Assembly (NCBI GenBank): GCA_951394045.1
Contig: OX595996.1
Span: 1,240,001 to 1,304,000 of the forward strand
DNA from: Nitzschia sp. DOCU1
Taxonomy: Eukaryota; Bacillariophyta; Bacillariophyceae; Bacillariales; Bacillariaceae
Reading direction: 5' to 3'
Length of the DNA stretch: 64,000 nucleotides
Position 1 is the first letter of the stretch; the number at the start of each line of letters is the position of its first letter. Below the pieces are notes generated by a model. That model did not search any database and was not told the DNA's origin. It saw nothing but the letters and a program-made list of their open reading frames with translations. Positions 7,300-46,600 of this stretch are shown piece after piece. Made by a program: the position numbers and the translations under genes.

Positions 7300-7773
7300 T
7301 CGAGTCTGTACCTTGTCAGCTGAACTCTTGACTAGATTGACCACACTTGCCAATCGTCGTCAATGATACTGCTCGTGTCCTTTGCAACTTGCCAATGCAA
7401 AGGTCTCTACTTTTAGATAGTTTCTTTCACACACTTCGCTCCTTAGAGTTGTGACTACAATACTAAACTCTCTCCATCCATCGCTGCTTCCGACATTATC
7501 GCAAACGATCGCTCTTTGCTTTATTCTAGTCTTCCAACATGAAGACTTTTCTTATCGCTTGTCCCCTTGTAGTTGTTTAGCTAAATTAGCTTCACGTCAA
7601 GCTATTCAGCGTCCGTTCCAAGATCCCAAATAATGAATCTTTCCGTTGCCACTCCAAATGTTTTCTTCCTCTCTAGTAATCCGAAATTGATAGTCGGGGA
7701 CTCGGAGCGCAGACGACTAAACGGACTGCCGACTCGATGGACTCCGATGACGTCGGCACCTCATTTTCCAACA
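7288..7773 (-). repeat. 5' LTR of the copia element
   Basis: The partner of 1375-1860 at a constant offset of 5,913 bases, 485 of 486 positions identical. By position it should carry the element's promoter. I could not assign U3, R and U5 boundaries from sequence alone. Confidence 0.97.
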
Positions 7774-42430: not shown

Positions 42431-43112
42431 ATGATGTTCCGAACATCCTTTGCTTTGGCAGCAGTTCTATCATGCCTCCTCGCCTTGTCGGGGGAGGCTT
42501 TTCAACGACCGACCTTCACTCGCTCTGTCGCCAGGAGTCCTCTAACGCAGCTTCATGTGTTTGGAATGTTGAACGACGGAAAGAAGGCTCTCGTCAAGTC
42601 GTTGGCGGGAAATTATGACCAAGCGGCGATTCAAGCTCGTATTCAGGGTCTCATTGATGACAATTCGGTGTTTATGTTTTCGTTCACCACGTAAGGAACA
42701 TACTCGTGTCCTATTTCATTTCCTTCGACGGGTAACTCGCTGACACGATGTTGTGTTCTGCATTCAATCCTTGTGTCAGCTGACCCTATTGTATTAAGGC
42801 CAAAGAGGTCTTGGATGCCATCGGTGCCAAGTACACTGTAGTGGAACTTGATAGCGATCCCGATGGTACGTATCGAGCAGCAGCTGCCACTCCCTGGCTT
42901 TGACGGCAACACTCGTACTCACGATTTCAATCGGTTCAGGAAAAGCCATCCGAGCCGAAATGGCCGATCTGGTTGGACGAACTAGTGTTCCCGCTATCTG
43001 GATTGGCGGAAAGTTTGTTGGTGGTTGCAATGACGGACCCATGGGTGGTATCGTCAAGCTCGACGCGTCGGGCGAACTCAAGGGAATGTTGGAAGCCGTC
43101 AGCGCTATCTAA
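42431..43112 (+). CDS. Selenocysteine glutaredoxin, plastid-type leader
   Basis: Three exons, 42431-42690, 42780-42865 and 42940-43112, give 172 codons before the TAA. Introns of 89 and 74 nt have GTAAGG/GTCAG and GTACGT/TTCAG ends. After splicing, exon 1 ends in SVFMFSFTT and exon 2 starts TGA CCC TAT TGT, so the CPYC active site reads U88-P-Y-C91 in an otherwise standard glutaredoxin: KAKEVLDAIGAKYTVVELD, cis-Pro TSVPAIWIGG, and the glutathione-binding GGCNDG. TGA lies exactly where the nucleophilic cysteine belongs. A SECIS-like hairpin lies 47 nt past the stop. The leader (MMFRTSFALAAVLSCLLALSGEAF) has an Ala23-Phe24 plastid junction. Glutaredoxins reduce disulfides and glutathionylated proteins with GSH. 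The alternative is a broken gene or base error, but the intact frame on both sides and the hairpin argue for recoding. Confidence 0.85.
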
Positions 43113-43159
43113 ACAGCACCTCTCCCAAATCAACCCCTCGAACTGCGTCGTGACTGTTG

Positions 43160-43243
43160 GTGGTGTTAAATACGAATGACGACTTTTGCAAGAGCAACTT
43201 CCTTTCCATGCTTTGTTAAAGTCTGAGATGTGATTTGAACCAC
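43160..43243 (+). promoter_or_regulatory. Candidate SECIS element
   Basis: A hairpin in the 3' UTR of the glutaredoxin. Helix I pairs 43160-43171 with 43233-43243 (11 bp, one bulged G). An internal loop follows, then the core ATGA (43176-43179) faces TGAG (43224-43227), giving the tandem G.A/A.G pairs that define eukaryotic SECIS. Helix II pairs 43181-43192 with 43212-43223 (12 positions, one T-T mismatch, two G-T). The apical loop (43193-43211) contains AA at 43196-43197. There is one imperfection, a C-T mismatch directly after the quartet. SECIS elements recruit SBP2 and EFSec to decode UGA as selenocysteine. Confidence 0.75.
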
Positions 43244-43683
43244 TGGGAGTCGCAAAATAAGCGATCGAGTCAAAAGTTTCCGATCATTCCATTAGCATAA
43301 CCCCAGAGGATTGTAGAAACGCATACCTCTGCAAGAATTTGGATTTTGTTTGATTATTATTGGTAGTAGTACTATCGATGAGTCCTCTCTAGTACTGGAT
43401 AACCGGTAGGACTGTGTGGCGCTCGCGTCGGCCCTCCCGATGCTTCCTAAGAGGGATTGTAGTAGTCCCGGCAGTCCACCCACTTTGTGTGAAGGTGACT
43501 TGTGATTAAGACAGCCACTCGTCGCCGTTCTTTACCTATTAGCATCCCTACTGTAGTAGTAATTCCAGCTAGCTTTAACAGCACCTATGTAGCAGTTTTC
43601 TCTGCAGTAGTCTGGTTCGTAGTAATAGTTATACATTAATAATAATACGGTTCAGAAGTGGTATCTTCCTTTGCACGCTACTT
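43244..43683. other. Convergent 3' flank
   Basis: Lies between the glutaredoxin UTR and the end of armadillo copy 2. It includes short AT-rich words and several tagtagta runs. No gene is supported. Confidence 0.45.
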
Positions 43684-46600
43684 TCAGTCCCATCGCTTCC
43701 ATCCAGTTGTAACGTACGATGGTAGGGTCAGATTCTCGTCGATCTCCTTGGGCACAACACCTGCACCTGCCAGAGTTTGTAGCCAAAGGCCGAGGGTGGC
43801 CAGGGCATCACAGGCCATGATACGTACTTCGGAAGCAGATTGTGGGTTATGAGCGACGTGGACCAGAGTAGCGACAACGTTTTTGGTGTTGGTCAAAGGT
43901 ACGACGGCGCCTGGTTCAGTGGAGAGATTGTACAGTGTAGCGGTGGCCGCCAATTGCTCTTCCAGAGTCTCTCGCATCACGCTAAAACTTAACAACTCAA
44001 GTACGACTCGATTGGCCAAAACGGTTTTGCCCGCTACGTCTGTGGAAAGGTTTTGTAGGACGCGCAACGACCACATGCGATCAAGTTGGTTCCTCATTGA
44101 ACCTCCGTTGACAACCAAACTGTCAATCAAGCCAGGGTATTTCGCCAAAGGCTCAACATTGGCGCGGAAACGCGACAGGTTGCAAATAATTTCTAAGCAC
44201 TTGGTGTGCATCGGGTCGTCTTTTTTCTGTGATACTTCCACCACCGCATCCATGAGTTTTTTGTTGTAACACATGAATGGCTATAGCGCGAGAATACAAA
44301 ATGTGTGAGTAAATGAGGATGTAGATAGAAAGTACGCGAAAAACTCTCAATATCATCAACTTACCGTAGCGCCACATTGTTTGGAAATATGAAGCAATGC
44401 AGCACAAGCGCTCATCTTCCCGCGTGCGACAGTTTCTTCTATCCTCTCGTTCTGTTGCTCGCGCATGGATCTAACAGTAGGAACAGTGACTTCTTCTTCG
44501 TCGTGGGACACGGATGAATCGTTGCCAAGGGACGATCTAGTTGATTCAGACTCTGATGAGTACGATTGCCGAGCCGACTCTTCGTCGTCTGCAGAGTAAC
44601 TGGGTTTCGGTTCATTAGGAAGCTTCTCCTTCTCGAATGTCCCTCCACACAGAATTGTGGCCAAAACGTTAATCAGATTTTGTGTTTGTGCCATGGGCTC
44701 ACGGTTCGATGGAGTCTTTGCCAGCATTGCTAGTGCGCCACAGGCATGCGCCCTAGCTTCATATTTAAGCTCCATTGCCGTTTTCACCAACGCCATAACC
44801 ATACCCGGATGGCAGAAGACAATTTCGCGGTTGTCCTTCGGCTCTGAGATGTTGCAGATGGTGGAGACTGCTCTCGTGCGTGCACTCATCGCCGATTCTC
44901 TGTCTTCGTTGGATATCTTTGCTGTTGATGCAAAGACCAATGCGTCGAGGAATCCAGCAGTACGGACAAGGGTAAGTTGATTCTTCTTCTGCGTAGAAAG
45001 AACCTTCAATGCGCCACAAGCATTGCTTCTTCGTGCCAACGACGAACAAACTGCCGCTTCCAACAAGTGCTGAAGGTCCGGCTTCGGTTTTGAAAGGAAT
45101 GGTACGCTAGCCCTCTGGGGAATACGGTGGTCTCTGGCAATCTCTTCGGCGGGTCTTGGCTTTTCGATCAATGGAGGGACAGGATATCGTTGCTTAAAAC
45201 GAACCTTGTTGGACCGAGGGCCACTCTGTCTTGTGGTTTCCCTCGATATAACTTTGTCTTGGACAGCGGCGGGAGCATCGCGATCCTTGATGACTACGGG
45301 CTCAGATTTTTGCTTGTCAACCTGGTCTTCTTTGGCTTTTTTCGCGACTCTTTCATTGAGTGTTGTTTCTGCTTGAGTTTCTGCTTCGGTCTCGTCTTTG
45401 GACGTCCACCAAAATCGGTTCGACGTCTTCGGAGGCGATTCGGCGCTCGGGTCAGAATCTAACTTGTCGCCGTTGTTGTCTTCCGTGTTGGCTGTCGTGT
45501 TGTCTACCTCAACGACCTCTTTGCCATCATCGTTCTCTTCCGGGTGGCTAGCTTCTAATTCTTCGTCGTCTTTTGTCCCGCTGTTGTTCGCCACAACTTC
45601 TGTGGCTGCGTCAGAATCGGTTTCTTCCACCTTGCAGTCGTTGATCCTAATGGTGTCATTTGAGGGTGCAGGCGCGACAATCACATCCTTTGTCTCTTCC
45701 ACATCAGACGTTGTAGTGTTCTCGAACAAATCAGAATCCGATGCCTCGACGTCTTTGTTGTTTCCCGTAGGAGAAGAAAGGGATTCACAGTGGCTCGCAC
45801 CAGCCTCCACTTCCAATGAATCTGATGGGGCGGCTTCAATCTCAGCAAATTCTGCATTTTCGATCTCTGGAACTACAATAGGAACAATATCCATCTGCTC
45901 GTTCTCATTCGGGGCATTGTCTGCTTCAGATGCTACGTCCGAAGGAGAGGCACCGTCCTCGTCTTCGATTTCGTACGATCGGTATTTGGAGGCCTGTGCA
46001 CTCGGTGAAAGCTCAAAGTCTTCACCTTCACCACTGCCCATATCCATGGAAATTGCAATTCCTTGTTCGTTGATACCGACAGTTATCTTGCGATCAGTGA
46101 CAGAGCTGGCGCTCTTTCCCAAAATATCTGGAGCATCATATTCCAAAGGAGCATCCTTGGAAGACGCCGCGGAGGCACTGTCGCCAGCGGAAGATCCAGC
46201 GGTGTCAAGCTCCTTCTCCTTGGGAGCACTATACAAGCCAAGCCCTTGACTTCCATCGGATTCGATAGCCGTCAAGTCGATAACTTCATGACACGAATCA
46301 TCAACGTGGATTGGCTTCTGGTAAGTCGCTTCCTCATTTGCGTGGGGGTTTAACACTGGCTCTTTGTCAGTTTCAGCCAGGATTCTCATGATAATGTTTC
46401 CTCGGGCAGAAAACTGTGAATGAAACTCTGAACGACTTTCTGGGTTGGCAGGCTTGGGCCTTTCATGAGTCTTTACGGGGCCCATTTCTACAAGGTGTTC
46501 ATTTGACTCTTTCATGGGCTCCAAATCTGTCGCAACATGGTAACGTTCCTTGTCAATGCTTTCGGACTCCAGCTGCAATAATTCTGCAGAAATGGACTGC

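Follow-up and report, generated by a model that had tools for sequence, protein, structure and literature searches.

A putative selenoprotein glutaredoxin gene, with a SECIS-like hairpin in its 3' UTR, in the diatom Nitzschia sp. DOCU1

A gene of Nitzschia sp. DOCU1 very probably encodes a class I (CPYC-type) glutaredoxin in which selenocysteine (Sec) takes the place of the N-terminal active-site Cys (U88-P-Y-C91), with the UGA read via a SECIS-like hairpin and the product most likely sent to the plastid. The gene was found in a stretch of 64,000 nucleotides of contig OX595996.1 (positions 1,240,001 to 1,304,000, forward strand; hereafter the window), in a genome of 52 Mb in 63 contigs. On the letters of the gene and its relatives, the TGA is almost certainly read as Sec. 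Three findings back the earlier sequence-only reading of a glutaredoxin that is a selenoprotein: the 3' UTR hairpin, Sec machinery in the genome and a likely TGA signature in orthologues.

Gene structure and targeting-like N-terminus

The coordinates of the gene are compiled in Table 1. The previously proposed splice from 42690 to 42780 was confirmed: a GTAAGG donor and a TGTCAG acceptor place the TGA directly before CCC TAT TGT, and the codons across the junction read ACC TGA CCC TAT TGT. Removal of intron 2 yields DPDGKAIRAEM, letters that P0001, P0002 and other orthologues share. The TGA at codon 88, within SFTT-U-PYC, is the sole internal stop of the 172-codon frame, which continues through a complete glutaredoxin up to its TAA, as had been claimed; PF00462 was matched on residues 80-142 (E 5.6e-19, above cut-off). 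The domain together with its C/U-P-[YF]-C motif is that of class I (dithiol) glutaredoxins, and the TSVP and GGCND stretches resemble those of this class. Judging by their names, the solved relatives (56 distinct chains, among them GrxC5 chloroplastic, 3rhb) are glutaredoxins or glutaredoxin-domain proteins.

Table 1. Features of the glutaredoxin locus, in positions of the window.
Feature	Position	Strand	Description
Putative Sec-glutaredoxin gene	42431-43112	+	three exons, 172 codons, 519-nt frame
Exon 1	42431..42690	+	MMFRTSFALAAVLSCLLALSGEA/FQRP signal/plastid-targeting-like N-terminus, then the first part of the glutaredoxin domain up to ...SFTT (AC/)
Intron 1	42691..42779	+	89 nt, GTAAGG...TGTCAG
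Exon 2	42780..42865	+	carries the active site U-P-Y-C
In-frame TGA, taken as selenocysteine 88	42781-42783	+	from splice enumeration and orthologue column
TGT, resolving cysteine 91 of UPYC	42790..42792	+	Cys in 120/121 rows, query included
Intron 2	42866..42939	+	74 nt, GTACGT...GGTTCAG
Exon 3	42940..43112	+	TSVPAIWIGG and GGCND region; TAA stop 43110-43112
SECIS-like element	43159..43244	+	3' UTR; helix I, quartet AUGAC (43176-43180)/UGAG

Exon 1 offers two in-frame ATGs, at 42431 and 42434, and encodes a hydrophobic N-terminus followed by EA/FQRP (read by eye). The Phe at position 24 is kept in 104 of the 107 rows covering that column. In diatoms, plastid proteins carry a signal peptide and, behind it, a transit peptide whose +1 residue is Phe (ASAFAP-type). 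The N-terminus fits this signal-plus-transit design, and a plastid location is likely; the plastid targeting asserted by the sequence-only reading is retained at that strength, as a prediction from the EA/F boundary and the conserved Phe.

SECIS-like hairpin and selenocysteine machinery

The AUGAC core of the hairpin starts at the 64th base past the TAA, and the element sits between the glutaredoxin gene and a minus-strand open frame ending at 43684. Helix II pairs GACUUU with AAAGUC, and an AA starts 9 nt past AUGAC. Folding of 43155-43246 gave -22.9 kcal/mol (z -2.19), a value that 5 of 200 shuffled sequences reached. Candidate elements were sought with a home-made SECIS descriptor (NUGA...NGA quartet, one closed hairpin, helix I), which ranked site 43176 first in the glutaredoxin 3' UTR (AUGAC/UGAG, -22.1 kcal/mol). 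Over both strands of the whole window the descriptor returned 234 matches, four of them with AUGA at -22.1 kcal/mol or lower and seven with AUGAC/UGA at any energy; the glutaredoxin site was the only one of the 234 to combine AUGAC/UGA, an energy of at most -22.1 kcal/mol and two stable helices. Another AUGAC/UGAG hairpin (-19.4 kcal/mol) was observed at 7747 on the plus strand; no TGA-interrupted gene was seen in any of the three frames over the 900 nt that precede it.

The descriptor had been more restrictive in its first version, which required AA in the loop along with other filters and covered one GPx locus on the other strand; it listed the glutaredoxin and SELENOT-like sites, missed the site behind the second GPx, and was later loosened. 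The AUGAC/UGA criterion was set after five genes had been inspected, and the SPS2-like and SelM-like genes were examined afterwards. With these settings, the best downstream match was AUGAC/UGA in five of six other TGA-containing selenoprotein-type genes of the genome. These are three GPx genes with the motifs NVASK(TGA)G, NVACL(TGA)G and NVASM(TGA)G, the hairpin of the third being weak (-12.6), a SELENOT-like gene (CAS(TGA)GSK), and an SPS2-like, i.e. selD-like, gene whose top three downstream matches are all AUGAC/UGAU. The sixth, a SelM/Sep15-like gene (SCSG(TGA)QLK, with a long C-terminal extension), showed no AUGAC/UGA SECIS in the downstream scan. The selD-like TGA gene is followed by three SECIS-like hairpins in a row, at about 2731, 2954 and 3255 of its locus, with helix II sequences alike (AAGGCAAGC, GAGGCAAGC), as if duplicated.

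As negative controls, 1500-nt stretches behind matches without TGA were scanned, and AUGAC/UGA was found in none of the 18 (selected loci, some overlapping). An equally or more stable hairpin with a different quartet was present in seven of the 18 (six different hairpins), so that hairpin energy alone is not discriminating. The Rfam model SECIS_1 matched neither the glutaredoxin region nor, at E 0.001 and with 134 of the 977 candidates from the first look scored, the genome as a whole, a result that says little because the model misses the control genes too. A SECIS-like element in the 3' UTR, as expected of a selenoprotein gene, was detected by the home-made descriptor with its positive and negative controls, SECIS_1 remaining silent.

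The genome holds tRNA-Sec, SepSecS and selenophosphate synthetase, as a selenoprotein gene presupposes. Five tRNA-Sec genes scored above cut-off, all with a TCA anticodon, four in a row at C5:639526-640069 and one at C6:887673-887758 (loci L009-L013); four of the copies are identical and one differs by a single base. Several tRNA-Sec genes are likewise reported for the diatom Fragilariopsis cylindrus in a passage of PMC5330540. Selenophosphate synthetase is represented by two selD-like genes, one of them with TGA. For eEFSec, 32 selB-family matches were obtained in the genome, none above cut-off.

The nucleophile column in relatives and rival readings of the TGA

The homologue search returned 238 proteins, the best 120 of which were compared. 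Named homologues come from Nitzschia inconspicua, Cylindrotheca fusiformis, Fistulifera solaris and Mayamaea pseudoterrestris, and further from Cyclotella atomus, Skeletonema and Fragilaria crotonensis. The check suggested earlier, whether orthologues have Cys or TGA at the same column, gave Cys in 107 of these 120, Trp (taken as TGA) in 12 and Asp in one (P0091); P0001 and P0002, the closest orthologues, are among the Cys forms. The 12 Trp rows are P0003, P0017, P0018, P0020, P0055, P0056, P0060, P0065, P0071, P0087, P0102 and P0110. The Pro that follows is identical in 121 of 121 rows (query included). Coding is conserved on either side of the in-frame TGA, at a position where homologues have Cys. 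That a stop falls exactly on the redox cysteine column is, to judge from the alignment, more than chance.

Trp is unable to act as a nucleophile, and metagenome gene callers may translate TGA as Trp. As a control for such a signature, 50 relatives of the SELENOT-like protein of the same genome were examined, among them P0160, which is Selenoprotein T in UniRef naming. At the Sec column, nine have Trp, two Met (both within a non-aligning stretch), 39 a gap and none Cys. Eight of the nine Trp rows aligned cleanly (CASW or CVSW, then GS), P0144 being the exception. Trp at the SELENOT Sec column indicates that this is how TGA appears in the protein collection. For the 12 glutaredoxins with Trp, the codon in question is thus most likely TGA as well.

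Some further relatives may be noted. P0091, from an MMETSP1443 transcript (organism name truncated to 'Entom'), has DPSA in place of the motif, letters that, as a guess, would suit a TGA skipped by frame correction. P0102, P0106, P0110, P0135, P0137 and P0139 have an added segment (DPTKxWY...NSPLN) preceding the glutaredoxin domain, and two of these, P0102 and P0110, have Trp at the Sec column. Five loci on viral contigs match at 33-35% identity. Among 19 fragments retrieved with an N-terminal query, 11 stop at SFTT and four at SFRT, exactly where the TGA would stand; since an unspliced donor (AC/GTAA, as in the window) gives the identical end, they were discounted as evidence of TGA. One of the 19, P0126, reads SFTTWPFC.

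The alternative that survives best, though we consider it very improbable, is a sequencing or assembly error at a true TGT or TGC codon of an ordinary CPYC glutaredoxin. TGA is one base from either codon and the two nearest orthologues do have Cys; against this, the 3' UTR holds a SECIS-like hairpin of the genome's own type, and the residue taken as TGA recurs in 12 of the 120 orthologues. Less probable still, and to a similar degree very unlikely, are three further readings. A pseudogene with a nonsense mutation would account for a stop within the domain, but no other lesion is seen beside this one stop, the splice sites yield the orthologues' letters, identity to P0001 is 82% over 131 tree columns with the conserved motifs intact, and the hairpin is present. 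Alternative splicing that drops the TGA, or a non-canonical acceptor that restores cysteine, may be considered given that the TGA begins one base past the first base of exon 2. Yet only one AG ends within 42700-42784, at 42779, and of 216 enumerated GT/GC-AG splices the 62 that reach the PYCIKAKEV frame all keep the stop just before the Pro. The earlier statement that no other acceptor of this intron gives Cys in frame stands for the PYC frame and needs a small amendment outside it: an acceptor at 42883 puts Cys after FTT, with the glutaredoxin frame lost. Finally, UGA decoding in selenoproteins competes with termination, and UGA might mostly terminate or take another residue, leaving a truncated protein as the main product; however, the redox motif would be missing from a product of 87 residues, and of the 47 family columns conserved at >=95%, 35 are located after the TGA.

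Returning to Sec at position 88, its distribution was followed on a quickly built tree (121 rows), for which the nucleophile site was masked and P0091 not counted. The gene clusters with P0001 and P0002, both Cys (SH-aLRT 94). The TGA/Trp label (13 rows) requires 12 changes, with a mean of 12.6 for shuffled labels, 187 of 500 shuffles being as low, and shows no clear departure from them. Resolution of the tree is poor: 12 of its 117 inner branches are starred, and the starred branches force two changes only. Repeated Sec/Cys exchange in the orthologous group is likely. The stronger proposal, that many switches between Sec and Cys have taken place in one orthologous plastid glutaredoxin of diatoms, such that relatives of about 80% identity differ at the nucleophile with the rest fixed, is tentative and, in our estimate, slightly on the doubtful side.

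Proposed mechanism, known systems and implications

In the proposed sequence of events, ribosomes would reach the UGA and the hairpin at 43159-43244 would act as SECIS, recruiting the Sec elongation apparatus with tRNA-Sec(UCA); the UGA would then be decoded as Sec and translation would proceed to the TAA. The selenol of U88, replacing the thiolate of ordinary glutaredoxins, may attack mixed glutathione disulfides or protein disulfides as its substrates. A selenenylsulfide with glutathione or C91 would form, and glutathione would reset U88. Greater reactivity of the nucleophile, which the sequence-only reading had invoked, is general selenol chemistry, and U88 may confer a catalytic advantage. 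The dithiol class I glutaredoxins, including GrxC5 chloroplastic (3rhb), belong to the same family and have similar TSVP and GGCND stretches, but their nucleophile is Cys whereas that of the diatom protein would be Sec.

Bacterial Sec insertion employs SelB together with a SECIS that lies within the coding sequence. A bacterial selenoprotein Grx was reportedly the subject of Kim et al. 2011 in Mol Microbiol. Bacterial Sec-Grx is also described in a passage of PMC13188914, and what is shared with the diatom gene is a UxxC glutaredoxin of PF00462 (passages of PMC13188914 and PMC9312934); in contrast to the bacterial form, the diatom gene has a 3' UTR hairpin and a targeting-like N-terminus. Sec-containing algal GRX is already in print, and the present gene adds another member: the main text of Jiang et al. 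2020 (PMC7539508) reports Sec-containing GRX in several selenoprotein-rich SAR algae and haptophytes, most of which share an ancestor, with a few Cys forms in the same subtree. The likeness to these proteins, as glutaredoxins with Sec, is by description and not by sequence alignment. The same text reports a recent Sec/Cys GRX pair in Fragilariopsis cylindrus, whereas in the present genome a single Sec copy was found and no Cys paralogue close to it, the best match, the gene itself aside, reaching 43% identity. Plastid targeting is not stated in the main text of PMC7539508, which uses neither 'plastid' nor 'chloroplast', and neither 'transit peptide' nor 'signal peptide'. In the selenoproteome of the pelagophyte Aureococcus anophagefferens (PMC5917014), glutaredoxin is among the legend abbreviations, so that this likeness comes from a legend and not from sequence. 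A literature search, partly of titles and abstract starts and mainly of non-subscription papers, found no other paper on a diatom Sec-glutaredoxin.

Ordinary annotation is expected to end such a protein at codon 88 or to miss the gene, and looking through metagenome protein sets for Trp at Sec columns, a signature checked on SELENOT, offers a simple route to hidden selenoproteins. If the nucleophile of a plastid glutaredoxin is Sec, this would link plastid thiol redox control to selenium supply. The most interesting part of the finding is the Sec/Cys mosaic in one orthologous group. Sec and Cys forms within such a group provide matched pairs for measuring the benefit of selenium and, if true, their switching would amount to a replicated experiment of nature on the reasons for retaining or losing selenium.
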